This document shows positions 1 through 35,239 of a stretch of 35,239 nucleotides of DNA, piece by piece. The stretch spans positions 1 through 35,239 of the forward strand of contig CAIPYV010000057.1 in assembly GCA_903869365.1 (NCBI GenBank), written 5' to 3'. Origin of the DNA: an uncultured Chlorobiaceae bacterium (lineage in GTDB: Bacteria; Bacteroidota; Chlorobiia; Chlorobiales; Chlorobiaceae). The first letter of the stretch is position 1. Each line of letters opens with the position of its first letter. A program made the position numbers and the translations under genes. The notes under the pieces are model-generated. The model had not been told where the DNA came from. It saw only the letters and a list, made by a program, of their open reading frames with translations, and made no database searches.

Positions 1-231
1 AAGTCACTGCTGAAATTTTTTCGTGTCCTTTTTGTCATTACCTGCTCCTTTTTGGGGCAAGTTAACAACTTAAACCGCTGTCTAAAAATCGGGGTCCACC
101 ATAGAATGCCAACCGTCAGAATACACATGACACGACACTAATTCAAATCTCTTGCCTATATTTAAATTCACGCATATTTTTCTTATTCCTTGAATGCCAT
201 TTACTTCGCTGTTTCCGCTAAACAACATTTC
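1..231. other. Upstream region of the hsd operon
   Basis: No convincing gene is visible here. A frame opening with TTG at 190 joins in-frame to the hsdM start at 232, but the 14 residues it would add do not look like the N-terminus of the HsdM family. The region is moderately AT-rich and probably carries the hsd promoter. I could not pick a convincing -35/-10 pair. Confidence 0.4.
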
Positions 232-2535
232 ATGAACGAAGTCACCCACAACAAAATTGTATCCTTTATCTGGGGCATAGCCGACGATGTCCTCCGCGAC
301 CTCTTCAAGCGGGGCAAATACCCAGACGTCATTCTCCCCATGTGCGTCATCCGCCGCATGGACGCCGTGCTTGAACCGACCAAACAAGCCGTGCTCGATA
401 TAAAAAAAATGCTCGACGATGCAGGAATCACCGAACAGCGTGCAGCACTCTGCGAAGCGGCTGGGCAGGCATTCTACAACACCTCGCAATTTACCCTGCG
501 TGACCTCAAATCGCGCGGCAGCCAGCAGCATCTCCTTGCTGATTTCGAAGACTACCTCAACGGCTATTCACCCAACGTTCAGGACATTCTCGAAAACTTC
601 AAGTTCCGCAACCAGCTCTCCACACTCTCTAAAGCTGACGCCCTCGGTACACTTATCAACAAGTTTCTCGACCCTGAAATCGACCTCACTCCCGCAGGTA
701 TCGACAACCACGCAATGGGCACGGTCTTCGAAGAACTTGTCCGCAAATTCAATGAGGATAACAACGAAGAGGCTGGTGAACACTGGACGCCCCGCGACGC
801 CGTGCGTCTGATGGCCAACCTTGTCTTTTTGCCGATTGAGGATAAACTCAAGTCAGGCACCTACCTGCTCTGCGACTGCACCTGCGGAACCGGCGGCATG
901 CTCACCGTTGCCGAAGAGACCGTTTTATCCATAGCCGCAAAGCATCAACAGGATATCCAATGTCTGCTCTATGGGCAGGAAATCAACCCCGAAACCTACG
1001 CCATTTGCAAGGCCGACATGCTGCTCAAAGGCGAGGGCGAAAACGCCGACCACATTGTTGGTGGCGCGGAATGGTCCACCCTCTCACACGACGCCTTTCC
1101 CTCTCATCTTTTCGACTTCATGCTCTCCAATCCCCCCTACGGCAAGAGCTGGAAAAAAGATCTCGAAGCAATGGGCGGCAAAGAGGGGATGCGCGATCCC
1201 CGCTTCAGGGTGATGCATCAGGGTGAAGAGCTCTCACTCGTCACCCGCTCCAGCGACGGGCAGTTGCTTTTTCTGGCCAATCTGGCCTCCAAAATGAACC
1301 AGACCTCCGCGCTCGGCAGCCGCATCGCCGAAGTCCACAACGGCAGTTCGCTCTTTACTGGCGATGCTGGACAGGGCGAAAGCAACATCCGCCGCTGGCT
1401 CATCGAAAACGATTGGGTCGAAGCCATCGTTGCCCTACCGCTCAACCTCTTTTACAATACCGGCATTGCCACCTACATCTGGGTGCTCACCAACCGTAAA
1501 CCTGCACACCGTGAGGGTTTTCTCCAGCTTATCGACGCCACCCAGTGGTTCAAGCCACTCCGCAAAAATCTTGGCAAAAAGAACTGTGAGCTCTCCCAGG
1601 AAGATATTGACCGCATCCTCAACACCTTTCTTGAGTTCGAAGAGACACCCGAATCAAGAATTTTTCCCAATGAGGAGTTCGGCTACTGGAAAGTAACGGT
1701 TGAACGTCCCCTCCGGCTTCACAGCCAGCTCACCATAAAGGCCATAGAGAGCCTGCGCTTTGCCTCCGGTGATGAAGAGATCCGTTCCACCCTCTACGAA
1801 GAGTTAGGCGACGACCTCTTCACCAATTTCAGCATCATTGCTCCAGCGCTCGAAAAGCGCCTTGCCGAGTGGGGGAGCGACGAAGAGGAGAGTGACGATG
1901 AAGAGGGTGGCAGCAAAAAAGGGCTCCCAGAAAAAAAGAAAAAGAAGCTGCTTGACCCCAAGACATGGGAGCGCGACGGCAGGCTTGTTGAATCCGCTTA
2001 TGCCTTGCGTACCATTCTTGGTGAACAGCTTTTCGAAGACCACAATATCTTCCGCCAGAATGTCATCGCAGCACTCATGCAGGGAAGTATCAAGCTGCCC
2101 GCAGCCGATCTGAACAAAATTCTGAAAGCAGTAAGCTGGCGGGTAGAAACCGCCCCCCCTGTCATTGCCAAAATGCACAAGCCAGGCAAGAACGAAGCTC
2201 AACCGCTTTACGGTCTTTACGATACGGTGACCCCTACAGGAAAGCCCGTGATTGTCGAATACGAACCCGATCCCGATCTGCGCGACACAGAGCAGGTGCC
2301 CCTCCTCGAAGAGGGAGGAATTGACGCCTTCATCCGTCGCGAAGTGCTGCCCTACACACCTGACGCATGGATAAAGGAGAGCGCCACCAAAATCGGCTAC
2401 GAAGTCAGCTTCACCCGTCACTTTTACAAACCACAGCCGCTCCGCACGCTCGAAGAGATCACCGCAGACATTTTTGCCATTGAGCAGGAAGCCGAAGGGC
2501 TGCTCGATGGTCTGCTGAAGGGAGGTGCCAAATGA
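232..2535 (+). CDS. hsdM: Type I restriction-modification system DNA methyltransferase subunit HsdM
   Basis: This is the modification subunit of a type I restriction enzyme. It transfers a methyl group from S-adenosylmethionine to adenine N6 and pairs with HsdS for site choice. From the ATG at 232 the protein is 767 aa. I prefer this start to the in-frame TTG at 190 because the family N-terminus begins at MNEVTHNK. An N-terminal helical HsdM region is followed by the SAM-binding motif I (DCTCGTGG, about residue 215) and the catalytic NPPY motif (about residue 300). Both are intact, so the enzyme is probably active. Residues about 545-580 form a strongly acidic run followed by a lysine run, an unusual low-complexity linker before the C-terminal domain. 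The stop overlaps the next start as ATGA, which implies translational coupling. Confidence 0.93.
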   Translation: MNEVTHNKIVSFIWGIADDVLRDLFKRGKYPDVILPMCVIRRMDAVLEPTKQAVLDIKKMLDDAGITEQRAALCEAAGQAFYNTSQFTLRDLKSRGSQQHLLADFEDYLNGYSPNVQDILENFKFRNQLSTLSKADALGTLINKFLDPEIDLTPAGIDNHAMGTVFEELVRKFNEDNNEEAGEHWTPRDAVRLMANLVFLPIEDKLKSGTYLLCDCTCGTGGMLTVAEETVLSIAAKHQQDIQCLLYGQEINPETYAICKADMLLKGEGENADHIVGGAEWSTLSHDAFPSHLFDFMLSNPPYGKSWKKDLEAMGGKEGMRDPRFRVMHQGEELSLVTRSSDGQLLFLANLASKMNQTSALGSRIAEVHNGSSLFTGDAGQGESNIRRWLIENDWVEAIVALPLNLFYNTGIATYIWVLTNRKPAHREGFLQLIDATQWFKPLRKNLGKKNCELSQEDIDRILNTFLEFEETPESRIFPNEEFGYWKVTVERPLRLHSQLTIKAIESLRFASGDEEIRSTLYEELGDDLFTNFSIIAPALEKRLAEWGSDEEESDDEEGGSKKGLPEKKKKKLLDPKTWERDGRLVESAYALRTILGEQLFEDHNIFRQNVIAALMQGSIKLPAADLNKILKAVSWRVETAPPVIAKMHKPGKNEAQPLYGLYDTVTPTGKPVIVEYEPDPDLRDTEQVPLLEEGGIDAFIRREVLPYTPDAWIKESATKIGYEVSFTRHFYKPQPLRTLEEITADIFAIEQEAEGLLDGLLKGGAK

Positions 2536-3569
2536 GCGATCAGCCGCAACAATCCCGTTTCCTTATCTATCAGGCCGAAAACGGCGTCATCAAAATCGAC
2601 GTCCGCTTTGAGGAAGAAACCGTCTGGTTGACCCAGCAGCACTTGGCCGAGCTGTTTCAGACTACGGTGCCTAATATCAGTATGCACCTGCGCAATATCT
2701 TCGAGGAAGGAGAACTGCGGCAGGAAGCAACTGTTAAGAATTTCTTAACAGTTCGCCAGGAAGGTACCCGGCAGGTCAATCGAACCATCGACTTCTATAA
2801 CCTTGATGCCATTATTTCTGTAGGTTACCGTATCAAATCTGTTATTGCTACAAGGTTTCGCATCTGGGCAACCCAGCGTTTGCACGAATATATCGTTAAA
2901 GGCTTTGTGCTCGACGATGAACGGCTCAAAAACCCTGATCAGCCCTTCGATTATTTCGAAGAGCTTGCGCGGCGGATTCAGGATATCCGCACCTCCGAGC
3001 GTCGCTTTTACAAAAAGATCACCGACATCTACGCTACCAGTATTGACTACGATCCGACGACTGAAACCAGCCTTGCCTTTTTCAAGACCGTGCAGAACAA
3101 GGTGCACTGGGCCATCACCGGCCAGACCGCTGCTGAAATCATCCATACCCGAGCCGATCGAAATCAGCCTAATATGGGGCTAACCAACTGGCGAGGCGCG
3201 AAGCCGCGCAAAGAAGACGTTGCTATTGCCAAAAACTACCTGAACGAAGAGGAACTGGCCGTTTTGAACAATCTGGTTGAGCAATATCTTGTTTTTGCTG
3301 AAGGCCAGGCCATGCGGCGCATACCCATGCGCATGGTTGACTGGGTAATCAAGCTTGACGGCTTCCTGCAACTCAATGAGCGCGACATTCTCACGCACGC
3401 CGGGCACCTCTCCCATGATGCTGCAGCGACCCATGCCGAAAACGAGTACGACGCATTCCACCGCCAGCGTCTGGCTGAGCAGGCACAGCAGCCGGACGAC
3501 TTTGATCAGGTCATGCAGCATTTGCCTGAAGCCCAGCCTGTTCGCAAAAAGAAGGGAGGCCAGCCATGA
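2532..3569 (+). CDS. RhuM family protein (virulence RhuM-like) inside the hsd operon
   Basis: This 345 aa protein matches the RhuM family, named after a Salmonella pathogenicity-island gene. The recognisable core runs from about residue 20 to 270 and includes a winged-helix-like N-terminal part (TVPNISMHLRNI) and the block VNRTIDFYNLDAIISVGYR. The biochemical role of the family is not established. Members are often found between hsdM and hsdS in type I restriction operons, as here. The start overlaps the hsdM stop and the stop overlaps the hsdS start, each as ATGA, so the gene is translated as part of the operon. No truncation is seen. The family call is good; the function is unknown. Confidence 0.82.
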   Translation: MSDQPQQSRFLIYQAENGVIKIDVRFEEETVWLTQQHLAELFQTTVPNISMHLRNIFEEGELRQEATVKNFLTVRQEGTRQVNRTIDFYNLDAIISVGYRIKSVIATRFRIWATQRLHEYIVKGFVLDDERLKNPDQPFDYFEELARRIQDIRTSERRFYKKITDIYATSIDYDPTTETSLAFFKTVQNKVHWAITGQTAAEIIHTRADRNQPNMGLTNWRGAKPRKEDVAIAKNYLNEEELAVLNNLVEQYLVFAEGQAMRRIPMRMVDWVIKLDGFLQLNERDILTHAGHLSHDAAATHAENEYDAFHRQRLAEQAQQPDDFDQVMQHLPEAQPVRKKKGGQP

Positions 3570-4960
3570 TTGCCGATCTCAAACCATATCCGGCATACAG
3601 AGAATCCGGTTCACTTTGGTTGGGTGCTGTTCCATCTCATTGGGAGGTTCAAAATCTCCGCACACTGATTCGACCATATAACGAACGGAATCGCACTGAT
3701 CTACCATTGCTTTCAGTTGCTCGCGAAAAGGGCGTATTTGTTCGCTCGCTTACAGATGCAGGTGAGAACCATAATGTTATTCCGGAAGACCTGAGCAATT
3801 ATAAAGTTGCTCGTGCAGGAAATCTCGTTATCAACAAGATGAAGGCATGGCAGGGTTCAATGGGTATTGCGCCATGTGATGGGATTGTTAGCCCCGCATA
3901 TTTTGTTTTCAATTTTACCATAGCAAACCGATCATTTGGACAGGCCCTTCTTAGGAGCAAACCCTATGTTGCGCACTTCGGTCAGGCTTCCGATGGCGTT
4001 CGGGTAGGTCAGTGGGATCTTACGATTAGAGGAATGCGTCAGATTCCAATTCTCCTGCCCCCGCCCGACGAACAGGCGGCGATTGTGCGCTTTCTCGGCT
4101 GGGCGAATGGGCAACTGGAAAAAGCCATCCGGGCAAAGCGCAGGGTGATTACGTTGCTCAACGAACAGAAGCAGGTCATCATCCACCGTGCCGTTACCCG
4201 TGGCCTTGACCCCTCCGTGCTCTTCAAGCCATCCGGTATTCCCTGGCTTGGCGATATTCCAGAGCATTGGGAGGTGCGGAAACTCAGAACACTGTTTCAT
4301 ACGCAAGGTAGTGGCACTACTCCAAGTGGAGACCACTATTACGGAGGCTCAATTAATTGGGTTATGAGCGGTGATTTGAACGATTCAGTTATTAAGAAGA
4401 CTAAACGTACAGTGCATGGGAAAGCGTTGATTGCATACAGTACTTTGAAACTCTATCCTGAAAATTCAATTGTCGTTGCAATGTATGGAGCAACTATTGG
4501 TAAAACTGGCATTCTTGGGGTTGCTGCATGTACAAATCAAGCCTGTTGTGTTTTTGCTCAAGCAATGCCAACGGTAAACGTCTTCCTTATCCAATTGATT
4601 ATTCAGACTGCAAAGCCACATTTACTTCGCGCGGCGTATGGCGGTGGCCAGCCGAATATAAATGCAGACGTTGTTCGGTCATTGCGCATCCCTTTTCCAC
4701 CAATTAAGGAACAGGACGCCATTCTTGCTCATGTTGAGTTGGAGACTTCAAGACTTACAACAGCCATCTCCCGCCTCGAACGTGAAATCGAACTCCTCCG
4801 GGAGTATCGCACCCGCCTTGTTGCCGATGTAGTAACAGGCAAGCTCGATGTGCGTGAAGCGGCAGCAAAACTGCCCGATGAAGCCTTGATTGACCTGCCA
4901 GACAACGACAGTGTTGAAGCTCTTGAGGACGAACCCTTTGAGGAGGAGGCTCTTGTATGA
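3566..4960 (+). CDS. hsdS: Type I restriction-modification specificity subunit HsdS
   Basis: HsdS chooses the bipartite DNA target for methylation and cleavage. The 464 aa protein has the expected two-fold layout. A conserved WLGxxPxHWEVxxLRTL block occurs at about residue 18 and again at about residue 227, and each copy opens a target recognition domain (roughly 35-165 and 245-390). Each domain is followed by a helical spacer rich in Glu, Arg and Leu (for example LEREIELLREYRTRL near residue 415). The two recognition domains differ clearly, so the target halves should be different. The last 40 residues are acidic. A strong GGGAGG ribosome site lies about 6 bases before the ATG, and the start overlaps the RhuM gene stop. 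Confidence 0.92.
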   Translation: MIADLKPYPAYRESGSLWLGAVPSHWEVQNLRTLIRPYNERNRTDLPLLSVAREKGVFVRSLTDAGENHNVIPEDLSNYKVARAGNLVINKMKAWQGSMGIAPCDGIVSPAYFVFNFTIANRSFGQALLRSKPYVAHFGQASDGVRVGQWDLTIRGMRQIPILLPPPDEQAAIVRFLGWANGQLEKAIRAKRRVITLLNEQKQVIIHRAVTRGLDPSVLFKPSGIPWLGDIPEHWEVRKLRTLFHTQGSGTTPSGDHYYGGSINWVMSGDLNDSVIKKTKRTVHGKALIAYSTLKLYPENSIVVAMYGATIGKTGILGVAACTNQACCVFAQAMPTVNVFLIQLIIQTAKPHLLRAAYGGGQPNINADVVRSLRIPFPPIKEQDAILAHVELETSRLTTAISRLEREIELLREYRTRLVADVVTGKLDVREAAAKLPDEALIDLPDNDSVEALEDEPFEEEALV

Positions 4961-7900
4961 CCACCGATATCACGGAAAAAGGGCTTGAAACCCTCATCAT
5001 GCGCCATACTACCGGTACAGACGGTTTTGTTTCATCCTCCGGTCAGGTTGAGCAGTCATCACCACCGTATGGCGGAACCGGATATATCGCGGGTACTCCA
5101 AAAGAGTATGACCGTGCATACTCGCTTGATGTTTCGCAGCTCTTCTCCTTTCTGCGTGCCACACAGCCAGAGCAATTCGCAAAGCTTGCCATGGCAGAGG
5201 CGAACAAACCGGGGGATATCAATCGCCTCAAGTTTCTTGCCCGCCTCTCCACCGAAATCGGCAAACGAGGCGTGATTGATGTGCTGCGCAAGGGCATTGA
5301 GCATGGGGCCCTTCACTTCGACCTTTTCTACGGCACACCCTCTGAAGGCAACGCAAAGGCATCCGGACTGCACGCGCTGAACCGCTTCTCCATCACGCGC
5401 CAACTGGCCTACAGCACGGATGAGACCCGCCGTTCTCTCGACCTCTGCCTTTTCATCAACGGTCTTCCCATTGCCACCTTTGAGCTGAAGAACAGCCTCA
5501 CCAAACAGACCGTAGCCGATGCGGTTGAGCAGTACCGGCGCGACCGCGACCGGCATGAGCGTCTCTTCGAGTTTGGCCGCTGTGTGGTGCACTTTGCCGT
5601 GGACGACAGTGAGGTGCAGATGTGCACGGAGTTGCGCGGCAAGGGCTCATGGTTCCTGCCCTTCAATAAGGGCTATCATGATGGTGCGGGCAACCCTCCC
5701 AACCCGAACGGTATCAAGAGCGATTATCTCTGGAAAGAGCTGCTTACTCCGGCAGGGCTCACCAACATCCTTGAGAACTACGCACAGATTGTTGAGGAAA
5801 AAGATGAGCGGAGAGGGAGAAAAAAACGTCGTCAGGTCTGGCCCCGTTACCATCAGCTCGGCGTGGTGCGTCAGGCTCTGGCTGATGTGCAGCAGTTTGG
5901 GGCAGGGAAGCGTTATCTCATCCAGCACTCCGCCGGGAGCGGCAAATCAAACTCCATTGCCTGGCTTGCGCACCAGCTTATCGACCTGAAGCGGGAGGGA
6001 AGGGAGCTGTTCGACTCCGTGATTGTGGTTACCGACCGCCGGATTCTCGATGATCAGCTCCAGAAAACCATTCGCCAGTTTATGCAGGTTGGTGCTACGG
6101 TAGGCCATGCCCGGCAATCCGGTGACCTCCGCCGCTTCATTCAGGAGGGAAAGAAGATCATTGTCTCCACGGTGCAGAAGTTCCCCTTCATTCTCGACGA
6201 AATCGCCATGGAGGCAGGTCGCACCTTTGCCATTATCATCGACGAAGCGCATTCAAGCCAGGGAGGCAAGACCTCGGCAGCAATGAGTCAGGCGCTTTCC
6301 GGCAAGAATACCTCTGACGCTGAAGAGCCTGATCCTGAAGACACGGTGAACGAAGCGCTCGAAAAACGTATGGCTGCCCGCAAAATGCTGACCAACGCCA
6401 GCTACTTCGCTTTCACGGCAACACCCAAAAACAAAACCCTCGAAATGTTTGGTGAAGCGCTGCCGCCCGACGTTGAAGGCAAGGTGAAGCACCGCCCCTT
6501 CCACAGCTACACCATGAAGCAGGCGGTCGATGAGGGGTTTATCCTTGATGTGCTCAAGAGCTACACCCCCGTCGAGAGCTACTACAAACTGATCAAGAAG
6601 ATTGAGAATGATCCGGAATTCGATACCAAAAAAGCAAAAAAGAAACTGCATCGGTACGTCGAAAGTCACGACCACGCCATCCGGCTCAAGAGCGAGATTA
6701 TGGTGGATCACTTTCACGAGCAGGTGCTGGCCGCCAACAAAATAGGGGGGCAGGCGCGTGCCATGGTAATTACAAGTGGCATCGAAAGGGCGATCCAGTA
6801 CTTTCATGCCTTCCAGAACTATCTCACTGAACGCAAGAGCCCCTATAAGGCGATCGTAGCATTTTCAGGAGTGCACGATTATGATGGAACGCAGGTCAGT
6901 GAAGCGTCGCTTAACGGTTTCCCGGGCAGTGATATCGCCGACAAGATCAAAAACGACCCCTACCGATTCCTCATCTGTGCCGACAAGTTCCAGACCGGTT
7001 ACGATGAGCCCTTGATGCATACCATGTATGTCGATAAACTGCTCTCAGGCATCAAGGCGGTGCAGGCCCTCTCACGCCTCAACCGCTCACATCCGCTGAA
7101 GTACGACTGCTTTGTCCTCGACTTCCAGAACAATTTTGAAACCATTGCCTGCGCTTTTCAGGACTACTACCGTACCACGCTGCTTGCCGAAGAAACCGAC
7201 CCGAACAAACTGAACGACCTCAAGAGAGATCTCGACAACGCGCAACTCTATACACCCGATCAGGTGCAGCAGCTTGTTTCACTCTTTCTTGGCGGTGCCG
7301 ACCGTGACCAGCTCGACCCGATTCTTGATACCTGTGTTGCACTCTATACCAGCTTGCTTGACGAGGATGGGCAGGTGAAATTCAAGGGCAATGCCAAAGC
7401 CTTCTGCCGCTCATACAGCTTCCTCTCCTCTATTCTGCCCTACAGTAACGCCGCATGGGAAAAGCTCTCAATCTTTCTGAACCTCCTCACGCCCAAGCTC
7501 CCGGCTCCAGTGGAGGAGGATCTCTCGAAAGGTATCCTTGACGCTATCGACATGGACAGCTACCGCGTCGAGAAGAGAGCGATGCAGAAAATTGTACTCC
7601 AGGACAGCGACGCCGAAATAGAGCCCATACCGATGGAAGGCGGCGGGCACAAACCCGAACCGGAGCTTGACCGATTAAGCAACATCCTCAAGAGTTTCAA
7701 CGAACATTGGAGAGAACAACTGCAAGACCCCGAACGCCAGACCAAACGCATCATTGACGACATTGCGCCAAAAGTAGCCGATAACACTGCCTACCGGAAC
7801 GCCAGAGAAAACACCCCGCACACCGCCCGCATGGTACACGACGAAGCACTCGGCAAAGTGATGCAACTTATCTTGAAAGACGATACCCAGTTCTACAAAC

Positions 7901-7968
7901 TCTTCGTCGAAAACGAATCCTTCCGCCGCGAACTCGGCGATGTAGTCTACGCAATGACAAACGGCTGA
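4957..7968 (+). CDS. hsdR: Type I restriction endonuclease subunit HsdR
   Basis: This is the ATP-dependent translocase and nuclease subunit of the type I enzyme. It is 1003 aa, normal for HsdR. The N-terminal nuclease domain shows the PD-(D/E)xK pattern with D162, E176 and K178 (in FELKN). The superfamily 2 helicase part has Walker A (AGSGKS, residues 326-331), Walker B (DEAH, residues 429-432) and a TATPKNK motif III. The second RecA lobe contains DKFQTGYDEP and QALSRLNR. All key residues are present and the frame is open, so the nuclease looks functional. The ATG overlaps the hsdS stop and is preceded by GAGGAGG. Confidence 0.94.
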   Translation: MTTDITEKGLETLIMRHTTGTDGFVSSSGQVEQSSPPYGGTGYIAGTPKEYDRAYSLDVSQLFSFLRATQPEQFAKLAMAEANKPGDINRLKFLARLSTEIGKRGVIDVLRKGIEHGALHFDLFYGTPSEGNAKASGLHALNRFSITRQLAYSTDETRRSLDLCLFINGLPIATFELKNSLTKQTVADAVEQYRRDRDRHERLFEFGRCVVHFAVDDSEVQMCTELRGKGSWFLPFNKGYHDGAGNPPNPNGIKSDYLWKELLTPAGLTNILENYAQIVEEKDERRGRKKRRQVWPRYHQLGVVRQALADVQQFGAGKRYLIQHSAGSGKSNSIAWLAHQLIDLKREGRELFDSVIVVTDRRILDDQLQKTIRQFMQVGATVGHARQSGDLRRFIQEGKKIIVSTVQKFPFILDEIAMEAGRTFAIIIDEAHSSQGGKTSAAMSQALSGKNTSDAEEPDPEDTVNEALEKRMAARKMLTNASYFAFTATPKNKTLEMFGEALPPDVEGKVKHRPFHSYTMKQAVDEGFILDVLKSYTPVESYYKLIKKIENDPEFDTKKAKKKLHRYVESHDHAIRLKSEIMVDHFHEQVLAANKIGGQARAMVITSGIERAIQYFHAFQNYLTERKSPYKAIVAFSGVHDYDGTQVSEASLNGFPGSDIADKIKNDPYRFLICADKFQTGYDEPLMHTMYVDKLLSGIKAVQALSRLNRSHPLKYDCFVLDFQNNFETIACAFQDYYRTTLLAEETDPNKLNDLKRDLDNAQLYTPDQVQQLVSLFLGGADRDQLDPILDTCVALYTSLLDEDGQVKFKGNAKAFCRSYSFLSSILPYSNAAWEKLSIFLNLLTPKLPAPVEEDLSKGILDAIDMDSYRVEKRAMQKIVLQDSDAEIEPIPMEGGGHKPEPELDRLSNILKSFNEHWREQLQDPERQTKRIIDDIAPKVADNTAYRNARENTPHTARMVHDEALGKVMQLILKDDTQFYKLFVENESFRRELGDVVYAMTNG

Positions 7969-7977
7969 CCATCCACC

Positions 7978-8223
7978 GTGGTGCAGGGACACACGTTAAG
8001 AACGTTCGATAGAAACAAGTTGGCCCTCCTCACCAACGCAAACGCCATCATGGTCGTCCACAACCACCCATCCGGCAACCCCGACCCCAGCCGAGCCGAC
8101 AAAGAAGTAACCACCAAACTCATCCAAGCCAGCAACATCCTCAACATCAACCACCTCAATCACCTCATTATTGGCAACAACCAACACTACAGCTTCTTTG
8201 CCCACGGCCTCATCCCCAAATAA
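7978..8223 (+). pseudogene. RadC-like JAB/MPN domain fragment
   Basis: This short frame, in the same phase as hsdR and starting just after its stop, encodes about 81 aa resembling the C-terminal JAB (JAMM) domain of RadC-family proteins. The metal-site pattern HNHPSGNPDPSRAD is present (H28, H30, S38, D41), followed by LNHLIIGNN. The family is normally over 150 aa, with a helix-hairpin-helix part and a catalytic Glu upstream; both are missing. The only starts are GTG codons at 7978 and 7981. I read it as the remaining 3' end of a radC-like gene whose 5' part was lost at the hsdR junction. A stand-alone short JAB protein is possible but less likely. Confidence 0.6.
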
Positions 8224-8239
8224 CCCCCACCACCAAAAA

Positions 8240-8261
8240 GGGCACGGAACCACCCGTGCCC
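8240..8261 (-). terminator. Rho-independent terminator for the minus strand
   Basis: A perfect 8-bp stem (GGGCACGG with CCGTGCCC) has a 6-base loop. Read on the minus strand, it is followed immediately by a run of five T. It lies 24 bases beyond the stop of the small minus-strand frame ending at 8286, so it could end that transcript. On the plus strand no T-run follows, so it is not an obvious terminator for the hsd operon. Confidence 0.6.
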
Positions 8262-8285
8262 AAACCATCCGTTTCAGCCAATGAC

Positions 8286-8447
8286 CTATACCTGCAGACC
8301 ACTGAGAAGCCCATAAAGCACTCCGCTCCGTCCTCGTTCATCAATTCCATATAGTCGCCAATAGATAAAAAACACGTCATCAACAGCGTAATACTCCGAT
8401 TTTCTGAGTACATTATCCTCTAAAGCACCTCGCAACAGCGGCAGAAA
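8286..8447 (-). CDS. Small minus-strand reading frame or gene remnant, unknown function
   Basis: On the minus strand an open frame of about 50 codons (from after a TGA at 8448-8450 to a TAG at 8286-8288) reads as a protein-like sequence rich in aromatic and charged residues, including SEYYAVDDVFFIYWRLYGID and ending GLLSGLQV. No ATG opens it. A TTG at 8433-8435 is the best start, giving 49 aa; otherwise it is the 3' end of a larger lost gene. A clear terminator follows on the same strand, which supports past or present transcription. I do not recognise the family. Confidence 0.3.
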   Translation of the reverse strand, partial: FLPLLRGALEDNVLRKSEYYAVDDVFFIYWRLYGIDERGRSGVLYGLLSGLQV

Positions 8448-8450
8448 TCA

Positions 8451-8802
8451 GTGTTGTCAAGCGGTCAATAGGAATACCAAATTCTTTTTATAATTAGAAA
8501 GAAATATCTATAAAAAAGGCGTAAAAAAATGCAGACAGGGGAGTCCCAACCATAAAAAAATCAACCGCAAAACTGCTGTAAGTTAAAGCACTTGTGTATA
8601 GTAATACTCTGTTGTCTCACTTTCTGGTTTCTATAAAAAAAGTAAAGGGCTATGCTCAGGCAAGAGCGATTGTTCAGCCATAGAAGAAAAGAGAGTTGAT
8701 AAAGGCAGGGTATAAAAAAGAAACGCTCCCAACCAAAGTCGAGAGCGTCAGACCGGAGATGCTATCTCTGGTGATGTTATGCTTCCAATATAAGCGATAG
8801 TG
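8451..8802. other. Non-coding AT-rich stretch with hairpins before the NYN gene
   Basis: No gene is seen in about 350 bases. The stretch is AT-rich with several A-runs. Near its right end are two possible hairpins: ACGCTC with GAGCGT (about 8722-8748), and CCGGAGAT with ATCTCTGG around a 3-base loop (8753-8771), the latter about 30 bases before the next start. These may belong to the 5' leader of the NYN gene. Confidence 0.35.
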
Positions 8803-9438
8803 ATGAATAAAGAAAACACTCACCATGCAAAAGAAGGGGTTCAGGTCTATGTTGATGGATTTAACCTCTATTTTGGCATGCTTGAAGCAGGGTTTGAATA
8901 CTGTAAATGGTTAAACCTGAAACTGTTGGCAACAAACCTGCTGAAGCCGAATCAGGAACTGGTTTGCGTAAAATATTTTACCAGTAGAGTCAGTGACAAC
9001 CCTGACAAGCAAAAACGGCAAACAACATATATCGAAGCGCTTGAGTCAGAAGGAGTACATATCTTATACGGTCACTACCAGAGAAACGCCATAGAATGCA
9101 AACGTTGCGGGAATATTTGGGCCTCCTACAATGAAAAAATGACCGATGTCAATATTGCCACTCAGATGCTGATAGGGGCCTATCAGAATCAGTACGATAT
9201 GGCCATGCTGATTTCAGGCGATAGTGATCTGGTTCCTCCCATTCGTCAAATTCATGAACTATTTCCCTCGAAAAGGCTCTTTGTAGCATTTCCGCCAAAA
9301 CGGCATAATCAATCTGTCGCATTGGTTGCAAAAGGTTCAATGACGATAGGAAGAAAAAAACTGGTTGAGAGCCAGTTCAGCGAATCGGTGAAAAAACGAG
9401 ATGGTTTTCTTCTGCGAAAGCCAACCGATTGGCAGTAA
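8803..9438 (+). CDS. NYN-domain protein (LabA/DUF88-like, PIN-fold ribonuclease family)
   Basis: This 211 aa protein carries an NYN domain, a PIN-like fold found in metal-dependent ribonucleases. The acidic residues expected at the active site are visible: D18 in VYVDGFN, D115 in EKMTDVNIATQML, and D140 and D142 in SGDSDLVPPI. A single CxxC pair (ECKRCG) lies between the first and second motif. A GTG at 8800 sits directly before the ATG at 8803; I prefer the ATG. The gene is intact among broken neighbours. NYN proteins have been linked to RNA processing and to defence islands, but nothing in the sequence shows its substrate. Confidence 0.85.
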   Translation: MNKENTHHAKEGVQVYVDGFNLYFGMLEAGFEYCKWLNLKLLATNLLKPNQELVCVKYFTSRVSDNPDKQKRQTTYIEALESEGVHILYGHYQRNAIECKRCGNIWASYNEKMTDVNIATQMLIGAYQNQYDMAMLISGDSDLVPPIRQIHELFPSKRLFVAFPPKRHNQSVALVAKGSMTIGRKKLVESQFSESVKKRDGFLLRKPTDWQ

Positions 9439-9508
9439 ACGCTTCTCAACGATCATCTTCCTTGTCGAAGACTTAAAATTATGTGGTTCTCAATATAAAG
9501 TCAAGGTA

Positions 9509-9869
9509 ATGTCATCTTCATATACGGCTCAACAGGTTGTCTCAAAAAAAAGGGTAGCCGACCACGGCGAAGTTTACACCAGCAAGCGTGAAGTCAATGC
9601 AATGCTCGATCTCGTAAAAAAATAAAACAGAGCGGATTGAGTCACGGTTTCTGGAACCCGCCTATGGAACGGGCAATTTCCTGGCTGAAATCCTTGACCG
9701 GAAACTCACGGTCGTGCAATCACGATACGGTAAAAACCAGCTTGAATACGAACGGTACGCCGTCCTTGCTGTATCCTCTCTCTACGGAATTGACATTCTT
9801 GAAGACAATATCAAAGAGTACCAAACACGGCTTTATAACAGTTTTGAGCAAAGAATGCTGGAGTCGTAG
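9509..9869 (+). pseudogene. Adenine-specific DNA methyltransferase, frameshifted N-terminal remnant
   Basis: Two adjoining frames encode the start of an N6-adenine methyltransferase. The first (9509-9625) gives KKRVADHGEVYT and REVNAMLDLV, typical of the opening of these enzymes. The second (about 9621-9869) continues with TERIESRFLEPAYGTGNF, LEYERYAVLAVSSLYGIDI and LEDNIKEY. The frame changes in a run of seven A at 9616-9622; removing one A joins the two parts. Motif I reads EPAYGTG where EPACGTG is usual. The rest of the enzyme, including the NPPY motif, is missing and a DinD-like sequence follows directly. The gene is broken three ways: frameshift, motif change and 3' loss. Confidence 0.75.
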
Positions 9870-10309
9870 AGCCTCTGGATTATGCCATTTTTCAGAATCA
9901 TGGATACATGGGCCTGTACGGAGGATTAAGACAAGATGATATTCACAGATTAAAAGGATTGAAAAAGAGCCAGAAAATCCTGGATTACATGGGAAGTACG
10001 GAATTGGCAGCCAACCTGTTTCGAGCAACACAGGCAGAAGAAAAACTCTGCAGAGACAAGGTCAAAGGCAAAAAAGCAGCAAATCATACACACCAGGAAG
10101 TCGGCGCAAAAGTAAGGAAAACCATTCAGGAATTGGGTGGCACTATGCCAGAGAATTTGCCAGCAGTTGAAAGCATCAAGAAAATCGAAACCAAACAGCG
10201 CAAGAAACTTGGTGGATCAACTCATCCGCCAAAAAAAAACAACCGAAGAATGATACGCGGTATCACAATCTATTCGGATCTTTTGTTCACTTTTTTTATG
10301 AACACATAA
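9848..10309 (+). pseudogene. DinD-like DNA-damage-inducible protein, 5'-truncated
   Basis: The frame open from 9848 to the TAA at 10307 encodes the C-terminal part of a DinD-family protein. It has KNAGVVEPLDYAIFQNHGYM, LKKSQKILDYMGSTELAANL, then FRATQAEEKL and TIQELGGTMPENLP. The family is usually near 270-300 aa; only about 150 residues remain and the N-terminal BRO/KilA-like region is gone. The first in-frame ATG is at 9908, inside the conserved part. Its upstream end runs directly into the methyltransferase remnant in another frame, so a deletion probably fused the two. The last 25 residues look unlike the family. Confidence 0.72.
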
Positions 10310-10370
10310 TCAACTACTCGTTGTTCGATAACATAAAAAGCCCATATCAACATATAACCCCATCCAGCAG

Positions 10371-10406
10371 GGCGCCGCACTCCGCTTCGCTCCGTTTGCG
10401 CAACCC
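10371..10406. repeat. 36-base GC-rich direct repeat, copy 1
   Basis: This element (begins GGCGCCGCACTCCGC, ends TTTGCGCAACCC) recurs in the same orientation at 11471-11506 with 34 of 36 bases identical. The two copies are exactly 1,100 bases apart and enclose the toxin-antitoxin-like pair. The GC-rich composition contrasts with the AT-rich DNA on its left. Confidence 0.75.
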
Positions 10407-10497
10407 CGAAGATCTTCTCGACATCATCGAAACCAAAGGCCGTGAAATCGCCGAAGCATTAGCCGTACTGAGAATCCAGAGAGAGCTGCTGCAATGA
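10399..10497 (+). pseudogene. C-terminal fragment of an unknown protein, possibly a DNA methylase tail
   Basis: Thirty-two codons from 10399 to a TGA at 10495 read as NPEDLLDIIETKGREIAEAL and then AVLRIQRELLQ. This looks like the helical tail of a larger protein and is reminiscent of type I methylase C-termini, which I cannot confirm. It has no start codon and begins inside the 36-base repeat, so recombination at that repeat probably removed the rest. Confidence 0.35.
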
Positions 10498-10683
10498 AGG
10501 TGAGTCACCGCTTTTTACTTGTAGAGCAGCCGGTATCAAATGTGGTTTTCGTGTCAATATCGTTCTATAAAAAAAGCCGTTATAATGATAACCATTTCTC
10601 ATTTTAATGGTAGTGAGGTCATAAATGACTTTAATAGAGTTTAAAAAAGTGTCTATTTATTTTATTTATCACACAAAAGTTTA

Positions 10684-10693
10684 ACTTATAAGT
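10684..10693. promoter_or_regulatory. Palindrome at the start of the toxin-antitoxin pair
   Basis: A perfect 10-base palindrome, ACTTATAAGT, overlaps the GTG start of the toxin-like gene. A second inverted repeat (ACCATT and AATGGT, 10591-10611) lies upstream in very AT-rich DNA. Antitoxins with an HTH commonly repress their own operon from such sites, so these are candidate operators. No binding evidence exists in the sequence. Confidence 0.35.
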
Positions 10694-11177
10694 GAAGAAA
10701 AGAGCTGAAATAGTACTTGTCGATCAAGGTTCAGGCGGTACGCTCTATTCGGTCCGTTTTGCCCGGGAGAAAGAAACGGAGCTCGAAAAGTTTCTTCACA
10801 ACGAGCTATTGTATAAGGAAAAAGGTTTTAACGAAATTGTTCAGCGTCTTTCCAGCATGACCGATAGTTTGGGGTTCAGAGAGCAATTTTTTGAAATGAA
10901 TGAAGGGTTGCGGACAGATTCTGTAGCCGCCCTGAAGAGAGGACGCATTCGATTGTACTGCTTGCGTTGGTCTTCGAGTTTGTTGATTGTTGGCACTGGA
11001 GGCCTTAAAACAGCTCAAACGTATCAGAAAGATATGGCCCTTCGCCATATTGTTCCTGAACTCCAGGAGCTTGATAAGCTGATTATGATGCGCCAGAGGT
11101 CAGGTGACATCGAAATAGATCACAATAACGGGAGCATGAGGGGTAACCTTATATTTTCATTGGATGATAGACTATGA
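10692..11177 (+). CDS. Putative RelE/HigB-superfamily toxin of a type II toxin-antitoxin pair
   Basis: The gene starts with GTG and encodes 161 aa. The block LKRGRIRLYCLRWSSSLLIV followed by GTGGLK resembles the central strands of Gp49/HigB-like mRNA-interferase toxins, where a similar RxxY/F stretch is followed by a hydrophobic strand. It is longer than classical HigB (about 100 aa), with a C-terminal extension. The immediate downstream partner, an HTH protein whose ATG overlaps this stop as ATGA, supports the toxin-first HigBA order. The pair is bracketed by direct repeats, fitting a mobile cassette. The toxin call rests on a weak motif plus context. Confidence 0.6.
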   Translation: MKKRAEIVLVDQGSGGTLYSVRFAREKETELEKFLHNELLYKEKGFNEIVQRLSSMTDSLGFREQFFEMNEGLRTDSVAALKRGRIRLYCLRWSSSLLIVGTGGLKTAQTYQKDMALRHIVPELQELDKLIMMRQRSGDIEIDHNNGSMRGNLIFSLDDRL

Positions 11178-11770
11178 ATACATCATTTTTTCAAAAGGTT
11201 GTTGAGCAGATACCGCCCTTTACAAAAAAATATGTAGAAAGGCAGGGTGAATTTGCTGTCAAGCTTAGTGAGTTACTTGAATCAACAGGTATGACTCAGC
11301 GTGAGCTTGCTGAAAAACTGGGTAAAAAAGAGTCCTATGTCAGCAGGATTTTGGCTGGTTGGTCGAATCCAACCTTGAAAACTATTGTTGAATTTGAAGT
11401 GGCATTGGGGAAAGATATTCTTGATTTTAATCTGGATATAAAGAGAGATCAATCTGAAAAAACCCTCAGAGGCGCTGCACTCCGCTCCGCTCCGTTTGCG
11501 CAACCCACCGGTCAGGATGCTTCCGCTCCAGGAACCACGCCGATGCAAACCAGCTCTTCGATGAAGCAGTCTCAATATTCTTCAGGTGAAACACCTCCGA
11601 CTTCGCCTCCGCCTGCTCAACCGCCAGGTACAACTCCCGATACACCCCCGACCGCTCCCGTTCGCCCCGCTTCAGCCAGTTCAACAAGGTCTTCCGGTCA
11701 ATCCCCGCAAGTTTGCAAGCCACCTCCCGGTAATGACCCGCACCCAGCGCATCCACAATGCACCCGGTAA
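11174..11770 (+). CDS. XRE-family HTH antitoxin-like protein with a chimeric C-terminal tail
   Basis: The first 95 or so residues are a normal XRE/HigA-like antitoxin. The helix-turn-helix lies at about residues 36-66 (MTQRELAEKLGKKESYVSRI, then LAGWSNPTLKTI). From about residue 97 the frame enters the 36-base repeat and then reads antisense through the neighbouring minus-strand gene. This gives a Pro/Ser/Thr-rich tail of about 100 residues (for example SPPPAQPPGTTPDTPPTAPV) that has no protein-like character. The natural C-terminus was therefore probably replaced by recombination at the repeat. The DNA-binding part should still fold; the tail may be harmless or destabilising. Confidence 0.65.
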   Translation: MNTSFFQKVVEQIPPFTKKYVERQGEFAVKLSELLESTGMTQRELAEKLGKKESYVSRILAGWSNPTLKTIVEFEVALGKDILDFNLDIKRDQSEKTLRGAALRSAPFAQPTGQDASAPGTTPMQTSSSMKQSQYSSGETPPTSPPPAQPPGTTPDTPPTAPVRPASASSTRSSGQSPQVCKPPPGNDPHPAHPQCTR

Positions 11771-11801
11771 TCTCCTCCGTAATCTTCGCCGCAGGCATCA
11801 C
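11466..11801 (-). CDS. Phage terminase small-subunit-like DNA-binding protein
   Basis: This 111 aa minus-strand protein resembles small proteins at phage packaging loci. It has an HTH region (REVACKLAGIDRKTLLNWLK) followed by a helical part ending SSKSWFASAWFLERKHPDRW. The pattern of a helix-turn-helix, then a tract of A, E and K, then an ERKxPDRW motif is typical of terminase small-subunit-like sequences. Its last 12 codons (VAQTERSGVQRL) lie inside the 36-base repeat, so the C-terminus is probably altered. It may begin at either of two adjacent Met codons. No other phage genes are near, so it is likely a prophage remnant or a stand-alone DNA-binding protein. Confidence 0.55.
   Translation of the reverse strand: MMPAAKITEEITGCIVDALGAGHYREVACKLAGIDRKTLLNWLKRGERERSGVYRELYLAVEQAEAKSEVFHLKNIETASSKSWFASAWFLERKHPDRWVAQTERSGVQRL
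11471..11506. repeat. 36-base GC-rich direct repeat, copy 2
   Basis: The second copy of the element at 10371-10406 differs at two positions. It lies at the point where the antitoxin frame stops looking like a protein and where the minus-strand terminase-like gene ends. This makes it a likely recombination boundary. A 13-base piece of the same sequence (GCACTCCGCTCCG) also occurs at 8318-8330. Confidence 0.75.
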
Positions 11802-11984: not shown

Positions 11985-12368
11985 ATGCCTATATCAGGAG
12001 CGTACACCGACGAAGCAAAACGCCTCAAAGCAGAGATCAAAAAGAAATTCAAAACCCAGGTAGCCCTCTGCCAGGCAATCGGCGCCAAAGACGCTTCCTA
12101 CATCACCGCTTACGTCACTGGCAAAAACCGCATCGGCAACATCCTTCGCGAAAAACTCGAAGCCGTCGGCATCGACGTCAACTACATCATCTACGGCAAA
12201 AAAGGCACCCCACAGCTCCCGCCACCGCCGCCCGACCCCACCCTGACCCTCATCCTCACCGACTGCACCCAAAAAATCCAGCAGCTCCAAAACGCCGCGC
12301 TCGACATGAACAAACAACTTCTCGAACTCAACAAACTCCTCGACACCCTCAAAAAAAGACTAACCTGA
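11985..12368 (+). CDS. Small HTH protein with a C-terminal coiled-coil-like segment
   Basis: This 127 aa protein has a predicted helix-turn-helix in its first 70 residues (TQVALCQAIGAKDASYITAY, then VTGKNRIGNILREKLEAVGI). A proline run follows (QLPPPPPDP, about residues 77-85). The C-terminal helix has Leu at heptad-like spacing (LLELNKLLDTLKKRL), suggesting self-association. It looks like a small regulator of phage or mobile-element type, and it is divergent from the terminase-like gene. The specific family is not recognised. Confidence 0.65.
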   Translation: MPISGAYTDEAKRLKAEIKKKFKTQVALCQAIGAKDASYITAYVTGKNRIGNILREKLEAVGIDVNYIIYGKKGTPQLPPPPPDPTLTLILTDCTQKIQQLQNAALDMNKQLLELNKLLDTLKKRLT

Positions 12369-17561: not shown

Positions 17562-17647
17562 TGCTGTTTTAATGCCGGGTTCAACGTTATTGATTTTTTT
17601 ATAATCACAGGCAGACTGCCTTTTTTATTGAATGATTCTTAAGAACA

Positions 17648-20600
17648 ATGGACGATAAATTTGTTGAGTATCCATCGAATATACCATACAGCGCTGTAGA
17701 AGCAGAAGTTCTGGCATACTGGAATGACCACGGGATTTTTCTCAAGAGTCTTGAAGAAAGACCGGCGGACAGGATATACTCCTTTTATGAAGGGCCACCT
17801 ACCGTTAATGGCAAACCTGGTGTTCACCATGTATTCAGCCGTACGATAAAAGATGTAGTGTGTCGTTACAAGACTATGCAGGGCTACCGTGTGCCTCGCA
17901 AGGCCGGATGGGATACGCATGGATTACCCGTAGAGATTTCGGTTGAAAAAAAACTTGGTCTTAAAAATAAGGCACAGGTGGTTGAGTATGGCGACGGAGA
18001 GTTCAATGCCGAGGCAAGGGCACTTGTCTATCATCATATTGACGATAATCGCGAAGGGTGGGGAAAGCTGACCGAGCGGATGGGATACTGGGTTGATATG
18101 GATAATCCATACATAACCTGTACCAATGACTATATCGAGTCGGTCTGGTGGGCTCTGAAAACCATTTTCGACAAGGGACTGATCTACAAGGATTATAAAA
18201 TTGTACCGCAGGATCCGAAATCCGAAACGGTGCTGAGTTCGCATGAGCTTGCCTTGGGTTACAAAGAGGTTAAAGATCCCAGCATTTATGTCAAGTTCAA
18301 AGTAAAGGGCTCCGAGGAGTCTCTGCTTGTGTGGACGACGACACCGTGGACACTGATTTCAAATGTGGCGCTTTGTGTCGGTTCGGATATTGATTATGTC
18401 AAGGTTTCACATGCAGAGAGTGGCGAAGTGATGATTCTTGCCAAGTCGCGTCTGCAGGTGCTTCTTGAGAAAAACGAGGAGGGGGAGTCGTTGTGGAAGG
18501 TTATTTCCGAACTCAAGGGACGTGATCTTGAAGGGCTCGACTATGAACCTCTTTTCAGTTATCTGTATCCTGAAAAAAAGTGCTGGTATGTTACTGCCGG
18601 CTCCTTTGTTTCAACTGAGGACGGCACCGGTATTGTGCATATTGCACCGGCTTTTGGCGCTGATGACTATGAGATTGCAAAGAAATACGATTTGCCGATG
18701 CTGCAGCCGGTGGCGCGGAACGGATGTTTTACTGCCGAGGTTAGCGATTATGACGGTATGTTTTTCAAGGATACCGATCCGCTGATTATCCGTCAGCTCA
18801 AGGAGGCAGGGAAGTTGTATCGCAAGGAGATCATCACTCATACCTACCCTTTTTCATGGCGTTATGATGTGCCGGTGATCTATTATGCAAGAGAGTCATG
18901 GTATATCAGGACTACAGCTATAGCTGATCGTATGGTGGAACTCAATAAAACCATTAACTGGTGCCCTCCAGAGATTGGTACCGGGCGTTTCGGCAACTGG
19001 CTCGAGGAGAACAAGGACTGGGCGCTTTCACGTGAGCGATTCTGGGGCTCACCGCTTCCTTTATGGGTTTCGGAGCATTTTGTTATTGGCGATGATGCCG
19101 CTTCGGGAAAGATGTTCGCGATCGGTTCCGTTGCTGAATTGCGTGAAGGATTCATCGATATTGAAGGAGAGAGGCTTCTCCTGGGAGATGCGCTCGACAG
19201 AGGGTTGGCAGTACTTGATCTGCACAAACCTTTTGTTGATAAAATTTATTTTATCAGGGAGGGTATACGCTTCAACCGCACACCGGAGCTGGTTGATGTT
19301 TGGTTCGACAGTGGCTCGATGCCGTTTGCCCAGCTGCACTACCCGTTTGAACATCGTGATCTGTTTGATCAGACCTTTCCGGCCGACTTCATTGCCGAGG
19401 GTGTTGATCAGACCAGAGGCTGGTTCTATACCATGCATGCCATTGCCACTTTGATTTTCGATAAGCCGGCCTACAAAAACCTGATTGTGAACGGTCACAT
19501 TCTTGATAAACAGGGCCACAAAATGTCGAAGTCAAAAGGCAATATGGTCGATCCGTTTGAGACTATGGAGCGTTACGGTGCCGATGCGCTTCGCTGGTAT
19601 CTTATGGTGACCAGTCCTCCCTGGAGGCCGAAATCGTTCAATGCTGATGAGATTGAGGAAGAACAGCGAAAGTTTTTCCGCGCCTTCATTAACAGCTATA
19701 ACTTCTTTGTGCTCTACGCCAATGTTGATGGCTTTACTTTTGCCGAGCCGAACATTGCACTACAGGAGCGTTCCGAGCTTGACCGCTGGGTTTTGTCGTG
19801 TCTGAACACGTTGGTTGGGGCCGTTTATATGCGTATGGAGCAGTATGATCTTACCGGTGCAGTAAGGCTGATCAACGACTTTACCGTTGATGATCTTTCA
19901 AACTGGTATATCCGCCGGTCACGTAAACGCTTCTGGAAAAGCGAGATGGGACCAGACAAGATTGCGGCCTATCAGACGCTCTACAGCGCTCTTGAGACGC
20001 TGGCAAAACTGCTTGCTCCTTTTACTCCATTTCTTGCCGACCGGATCTACCTGAATCTGAATGGAGTCAGCGGACTCGAATCTTGTGAGTCAGTTCACCT
20101 GGCGGATTTTCCTCTGCTTGACGTGTCGGCTATCGACCGTCCGCTTGAGCAACGCATGAAAAAGGCACAGATTATTACCTCGCTTGTCCGAACCATGCGC
20201 GAAAAAGCTTCCATCAAGGTTCGTCAGCCGCTCAAACGTATTCTGCTCGCTGTCAGTGATGCTGAAGCAAGGGAAGAGTATCGATTGGTTGATGATATTA
20301 TTATGGAAGAGATCAATGTCCAGAAGATTGAGTACATAGAGGAGGAGGGCTCAGTCATCAGCAAAAAGGTAAAGCCGAATTTCAAAACCCTCGGCCCGCG
20401 TTTCGGCAAGGATATGAAAGCGCTTGCTGAAGCCATAAGGATCATGAGCCACAAACAGATTGCGCTTCTGGAACATCAGGGACATCTGTCGCTTGAACTC
20501 GATGGTAAAGTGTTTGCTATTATGCGTGAAGATGTAGAGATCATGCATGAGGATATCGAGGGCTGGCTTGTTGCATCCGATGAAGCCAATGGTATTATGG

Positions 20601-34019: not shown

Positions 34020-35239
34020 GTCGCAATACTCTATGAGTGCAATTAGATAAGAAGTGGTCTCAACTGGAATAGGAGTAGTTTTTGTGCTTGTCGCAATACT
34101 CTATGAGTGCAATTAGATAAGAAGTGGTCTCAACTGGAATAGGAGTAGTTTTTGTGCTTGTCGCAATACTCTATGAGTGCAATTAGATAAGAAGTTGCTG
34201 ATAGGTGACTTGATGAGGAAAAGGCTTCATTGTCGCAATACTCTATGAGTGCAATTAGATAAGAAGACTGTGATTACCGCAACGGGCAGGTGTACGATGA
34301 GTAGTCGCAATACTCTATGAGTGCAATTAGATAAGAAGTCAATAATAACTGACCGGCGCATGGTGCGCTGGCATGGTCGCAATACTCTATGAGTGCAATT
34401 AGATAAGAAGTAACAATAAACGAAATAAAGGACCTCATTCTTCCAGTCGCAATACTCTATGAGTGCAATTAGATAAGAAGTACATGGTCAAGGACATGGT
34501 TGATACTGCCATTCTGATGTCGCAATACTCTATGAGTGCAATTAGATAAGAAGTAATTCAAAAACTTATCCTGGATTTCTTGGTTTGCGTCGCAATACTC
34601 TATGAGTGCAATTAGATAAGAAGCCATAACGAAAACGAAATAGTCTTATTACGATTAAAGGGTCGCAATACTCTATGAGTGCAATAAGATAAGAAGCTTC
34701 GACACGGATCCTTTTTATTGGGAAATTGAGATCGGTCGCAATACTCTATGAGTGCAATTAGATAAGAAGCTTGACCAGAATGGTCAGGCTATAAGGGATA
34801 TAAAAGTCGCAATACTCTATGAGTGCAATTAGATAAGAAGAGCCTGACTAAACATTATGAAGAGTTGATTTCTGATAGTCGCAATACTCTATGAGTGCAA
34901 TTAGATAAGAAGATTTGAATGCTGGTAGAATTGTCCAACTTGAAATGGCGTCGCAATACTCTATGAGTGCAATTAGATAAGAAGCAAATCGGTCTCTGCC
35001 ATGGAGACCATGAGACATGGTGTCGCAATACTCTATGAGTGCAATTAGATAAGAAGTCAAGAAAACCCTTATGATAGTCATCATCACAGGAAAAGTCGCA
35101 ATACTCTATGAGTGCAATTAGATAAGAAGTTTTTTCAATGGCTTAAAAAAAAGAAAAGTTTTTAAGTCGCAATACTCTATGAGTGCAATTAGATAAGAAG
35201 GCAGTGATTAGAATTGCAGTAGTTATGTCATTTTCAGTC
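34020..35239 (+). CRISPR. CRISPR array, 17 repeats of 35 bases, continuing past the window edge
   Basis: Seventeen repeats (starting GTCGCAATAC, ending AGATAAGAAG) occur from 34020 to 35200, separated by 16 complete spacers of 35-38 bases. A further 39 bases follow to the end of the window. Sixteen repeats are identical; the tenth (34662-34696) has one change, TTAGAT to TAAGAT. The centre holds a short ACTC-TAT-GAGT stem. Spacers 1 and 2 are identical (34055-34089 and 34125-34159). No cas gene is in the window apart from the Csx15-like gene. The subtype cannot be fixed from the repeat alone; the neighbour favours type III. Strand is given as the repeat is written, since array orientation is uncertain. 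Confidence 0.97.

Follow-up and report, generated by a model that had tools for sequence, protein, structure and literature searches.

The question raised by this locus is whether a pair of toxin-antitoxin-like genes moves by means of the short repeat that brackets it, or whether the repeat and the genes came to lie together in some other way. The window (the whole stretch of DNA analysed, 35,239 nucleotides from an uncultured Chlorobiaceae bacterium) comes from a draft, metagenome-derived assembly of 2.93 Mb in 136 contigs. An earlier note had described two same-direction copies of a 36-base sequence, with gene fragments meeting both and the gene pair filling the space between them, and had suggested that the block could be a cassette which recombination at the repeat adds or removes. 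The two copies (10371-10406 and 11471-11506, both on the plus strand) are indeed identical at 34 of 36 positions, start 1,100 bases apart and are not expected by chance: with up to three mismatches allowed, the 36-base element has exactly two matches in the window compared with none in 100 shuffles. Its core occurs four times in the assembly, twice in the window and once on each of two small contigs, and our literature search turned up no description of the repeat. We call the 36-mer the head, after its place in the arrays of relatives described below. The features concerned are these:

4957-7968, plus strand: type I restriction endonuclease subunit HsdR, defence cargo (Pfam HSDR_N, 1.6e-19; PADLOC REase_I, 8.9e-43).
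7978-8223, plus strand: C-terminal fragment of radC (Pfam RadC, 5.3e-22, covering just positions 57-120 of the profile; 93% identity with that of locus L117).
8800-9438, plus strand: NYN-domain protein, PADLOC candidate HEC-09 (Pfam NYN, 1e-12; HEC-09, 6.1e-94).
9847-10309, plus strand: C-terminal fragment of the candidate defence gene PDC-S13 (PADLOC, 9.8e-45, the match starting at profile position 106; four genomes show DNA homology from 9847).
10310-10370, plus strand: leader-like stretch before head 1 (by eye, similar stretches precede the first heads of several relatives).
10371-10406, plus strand: head 1, repeat copy 1 (repeat comparison; mismatch search against shuffles).
10399-10497, plus strand: C-terminal fragment of hsdM, type I methyltransferase (homologous to locus L009, whose ORF matches PADLOC MTase_I, 5.1e-16).
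10692-11177, plus strand: toxin-like protein of predicted RelE/HigB fold, PDC-M64B (PADLOC, 5.8e-32; AlphaFold2 pLDDT 86; Z 9.8 to 6af4_A).
11174-11463, plus strand: HTH antitoxin-like protein, own sequence (Pfam HTH_3, 4e-11; the ORF continues through head 2 to 11770).
11471-11506, plus strand: head 2, repeat copy 2 (homology to array units starts at ~11457).
11504-11801, minus strand: small HTH-like gene c6, C-terminus lost (relatives' homology from 11504; weak HTH_29 match, 0.0027).
11985-12368, plus strand: small gene c1 (no family match; partners c6 in relatives).

Gene fragments do meet both copies, as had been noticed. The 3' end of copy 1 (~10399-10407) is where the hsdM fragment begins; what belongs to the antitoxin itself stops at ~11461-11463, just short of copy 2, and a minus-strand gene (11466-11801) ceases to resemble its relatives at 11504, where copy 2 has its 3' end. 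The account of the intervening space held in part: it contains the RelE/HigB-fold ORF and the HTH_3 ORF, but these do not fill it entirely, as it also includes the hsdM fragment (10407-10497) followed by ~190 bases of non-coding DNA. Elsewhere in the window, a further junction lies at 9847-9851, where the fragment on the upstream side (9600-9851) has its matches in one set of genomes and the PDC-S13 fragment in another, and positions 34020-35228 hold a CRISPR-like array of 17 repeats of ~35 bases (GTCGCAATACTCTATGAGTGCAATTAGATAAGAAG), units 1 and 2 of which are identical over 63 bases including the spacer.

The label toxin-antitoxin-like is a fair one, judged by predicted fold and gene order. 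Searches of the toxin-like ORF against Pfam and NCBIfam gave no match, and its profile found nothing among the sequences of solved structures. Its AlphaFold2 model (17 relatives; pLDDT 86, pTM 0.84) is closest among solved structures to 6af4_A (Z 9.8, rmsd 3.3 over 111 residues), the top matches being RelE/HigB toxins, although identity to the nearest solved toxin is ~12% and the best Foldseek E-value is 0.01. The toxin and antitoxin ORFs overlap by a few bases and form one operon, and the relatives' records retrieved via the toxin gene are from Chlorobiaceae. Intact relatives have a third gene of ~154 codons, the full operon being present in L124-L127; PADLOC assigns both the intact antitoxin (9.5e-19) and the third protein (6.9e-09) to PDC-M64C. 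On these sequence matches the window pair is what remains of a candidate defence system of three genes, PDC-M64 (PDC for phage defence candidate, PMC11514479), made up of a predicted HigB-fold toxin, an HTH antitoxin and the third protein. Compared with an intact antitoxin of 129 residues, that of the window matches residues 1-99 only and that of a related contig, G064:C130, residues 1-97 only, and the third gene was found in neither. PDC-M64 thereby acquires a predicted RelE/HigB toxin fold.

In relatives, the head is the best-conserved portion of a tandem noncoding array with units of ~110-290 bases, in a single orientation per array; heads were collected by pattern search, so that their conservation is inflated. 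By eye, the array bodies comprise two main types and one terminal type, a leader of ~60 bases stands ahead of several first heads, and the head itself has no evident self-complementarity or inverted repeat. The pattern occurs in 20 of 86 genomes of the family, all 20 among the 65 belonging to one Chlorobiaceae genus, and in none of 21 sister-genus genomes, while the reversed pattern is absent from all 86; in a phylum-wide sample it was found in 17 of 394 genomes, confined to the same single genus of 170. The best-preserved loci share one order, namely defence cargo, leader and head array, fold-rich noncoding tail, radC, and then c6 and c1, and this island anatomy is restricted to one genus of the sample. 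The cargo beside or upstream of arrays includes type IIG, type III and type I restriction genes, PDC-M02, AbiGi, an AbiP-like protein, a DUF3800 protein, PDC-M66, AbiD, Shedu and a BrxH/HmaA-like helicase. In many loci, not in all, a same-strand gene stops 40-210 bases ahead of the first head. A noncoding repeat array, so far seen in one genus only, borders a slot for antiviral genes.

The noncoding tail ahead of radC is ~1.5-2.7 kb long and 80-94% conserved (L117, which is G054:C50, oriented ~3760-6130, and L111, L112, L113, L119 and L122). On both strands its folds are more stable than those of shuffles, an excess that is smaller for array windows. At gathering score, Rfam gave no family in five islands except the tRNA of the window, and below gathering nothing convincing in L117; the idea that the tail consists of tetraloop hairpins was dropped, each locus having no more than 2-4 perfect stems of 6 bp that close a 4-base loop. 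Among the islands, that on G038:C28 carries a PriCT primase, a DUF3987 gene and a P4-type integrase, and that on G028:C4 an AlpA gene and a P4-type integrase. The c6-c1 pair is also present at loci where no integrase was seen, and an integrase may therefore not belong to every such locus; of the features of the islands with P4-type integrases, the window keeps only c6, c1 and the radC fragment. That fragment lies right behind hsdR, as if an earlier unit of cargo, array and radC had collapsed there too. Both c6 and c1 are found at differing chromosomal places among genomes, including places away from heads or integrases (L134, G035:C3; L135, G060:C31). A plasmid origin of the array found no match in PLSDB. 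A viral origin was likewise set aside, with heads (two) on just one IMG/VR contig, read in part; this 25-kb contig (L131, IMGVR_UViG_3300037878_000365) may be an island of bacterial origin that the collection lists as viral.

If the pair were a mobile block inserted and excised by recombination between the two direct repeats, pair and heads should keep company. They occur independently of one another. The pair lacks a nearby head in G083:C7 (L126), in G038:C36 (L127) and in the distant loci L099-L110, so relatives with the supposed cassette and no repeats exist; in G031:C107, G085:C22 and G064:C130 heads lie only downstream of it, and heads on both sides were seen only in the window. Conversely, the repeat adjoins many other defence genes. 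In G064:C130, 93% identical to the window over 1.1 kb, the methyltransferase gene whose tail follows head 1 in the window continues upstream through the place of that head. The nearest comparison to an empty site is given by G068, G081 and G079, which have in common the end of one type III restriction gene and an array. In G068 the array follows that gene directly, with nothing between; in G081 an ~800-base block with AbiGi intervenes, homology resuming on both sides and AbiGi lying ~160 bases from the head; in G079 the intervening gene is Shedu, and the leader has for the most part been replaced. Neither insert was found to have a head on its array-distal side, which speaks against exchange between heads as the route of entry. 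The geometry of the window and the single orientation of heads in multi-head loci, by which head-head recombination could in principle delete a block, are what favours the cassette, and given these comparisons we regard it as scarcely credible. Loci with one restriction gene that differ by a single defence gene (none, AbiGi or Shedu) are natural material on the entry of defence genes into islands.

Other movers fared no better. An integron reading was rejected, as the arrays L112, L118 and L119 contain no attC-like pair (RYYYAAC ... GTTRRRY) and the only such pairs in the window (8859-8916 and 17579-17669) lie away from the heads; the integron integrase model TIGR02249 reached at best 81.5 bits in the window's draft assembly, against a cut-off of 265. 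The two Y1 transposases of the genome are on other contigs and have no tie to heads.

We consider it likely instead that the window locus is an eroded defence region of the type found in the genus, where what is left of the array lies on both sides of a broken PDC-M64 operon without moving it. Homology at the three junctions ends at the edges of the heads (10399, 11461-11463 and 11504). By eye, head 1 and the hsdM tail have 3-4 C in common at junction 1; at junction 2 the antitoxin has 3 bases in exact agreement with the end of the array, or ~8 if one mismatch is allowed; and head 2 and c6 share 3-6 bases at junction 3, according to the array unit taken as parent. Deletions or rearrangements at these 3-8 shared bases would have created all three junctions. 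In one step the leader and head 1 would have been joined to the hsdM tail; in another the antitoxin would have been joined to the internal head 2, with loss of its C-terminus and of the third gene; and in a third head 2 would have been joined to c6, with loss of the tail and radC. Of these events, the one at junction 2 probably preceded that at junction 3, because G064:C130 also has the antitoxin joined to head 2 and then continues, after the head, with normal array sequence in place of c6. Horizontal transfer of the block carrying junction 2 is a possible alternative to this order of events.

Because the junctions share 3-8 bases, illegitimate recombination suffices to explain them, and such short matches fit that process, for which they are weak evidence by themselves. 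The shared stretches are short and fall where the sequence is rich in C or A, and junctions 1 and 3 have been seen only in the draft assembly of the window. This last point is also one reason to ask whether the junctions are errors made where a metagenome-derived genome was broken at repeats. The draft is fragmented, one of its contigs (C26) starts inside radC, and other small pieces have short tail matches close to their ends. However, junction 2 occurs independently in G064:C130, and matches of 3-8 bases, or even the whole 36-base head, do not force the mis-joining of unrelated flanks; assembly error is therefore very unlikely in our estimation. Pieces of radC and the tail are found elsewhere in the window's assembly (G000) on C26 (1-78), C2 (507-569) and C107 (1286-1345), one of them at a contig end, which suggests that assemblies break at these repeats.

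A further point that could be held against chance breakage is that two junctions fall at the same position, the 3' end of the head, which could mean more than coincidence. The earlier note had allowed for breaks being drawn to a short repeat, and this stands to the extent that two window junctions are at the 3' end and one at the 5' edge of a head, and that the sequences adjoining heads in relatives, on the one side as on the other, are several and unrelated. On this account the head would be a site recognised by a recombinase of the island or another DNA-binding protein, with breaks or exchanges made at its edges on purpose, and the greater conservation of heads than of adjoining sequence would agree with it. 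Yet that conservation is inflated by the pattern-based collection, AbiGi stands ~160 bases from its nearest head, the window junctions have shared bases that make a dedicated enzyme unnecessary, and no recombinase is tied to the head, nor is an inverted repeat obvious in it. We therefore think a recognised site improbable. It is similarly doubtful that head and array together form a putative functional site of a mobile island, bound by an island protein and marking the downstream edge of an antiviral exchange slot; should the head be such a boundary, it would, equally tentatively, belong with neither integron sites nor transposon ends. The cassette story gives way, in our preferred reading, to a testable history of an eroded defence island.

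Several known systems resemble parts of this locus. Integron cassette arrays likewise consist of genes followed by a repeated site in single orientation, but the heads have no attC-like pair and no integron integrase exceeded the cut-off. REP and BIME palindromes would be recognised by a repeat that itself folds into a hairpin; by eye the head is not self-complementary, and the better-than-shuffled folding seen near it is that of the tail and, to a smaller degree, of array windows. Type II toxin-antitoxin systems of the HigBA type share the RelE/HigB-fold first gene, the HTH_3 second gene and the overlapping ORFs, but here the toxin, known by its predicted fold, has no Pfam or NCBIfam match and intact relatives add a third gene. 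All three proteins of those relatives match PADLOC models of PDC-M64, from which the window differs in its shortened antitoxin and missing third gene. The pair adjoins hsdM in L127, where that gene is immediately upstream of the PDC-M64 operon, and in L009, and lies near hsdR in L125. Defences embedded within restriction systems are reported in PMC12255303, which cites the original preprint; there DarTG2 lies inside a type I restriction system of enteropathogenic E. coli, much as the pair here adjoins type I restriction genes, although the toxin family is another one and the neighbouring restriction genes of the window are broken. In P4-like satellites and P2-like prophages, defence genes gather in hotspots (PMC9122126) that likewise offer a variable slot for antiviral genes, there within an integrative element; judged by gene content, two of our relatives have a P4-type integrase together with primase-type genes in one and AlpA in the other. 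The genus and the flanking genes are different, and the slot described here borders a repeat array and radC.
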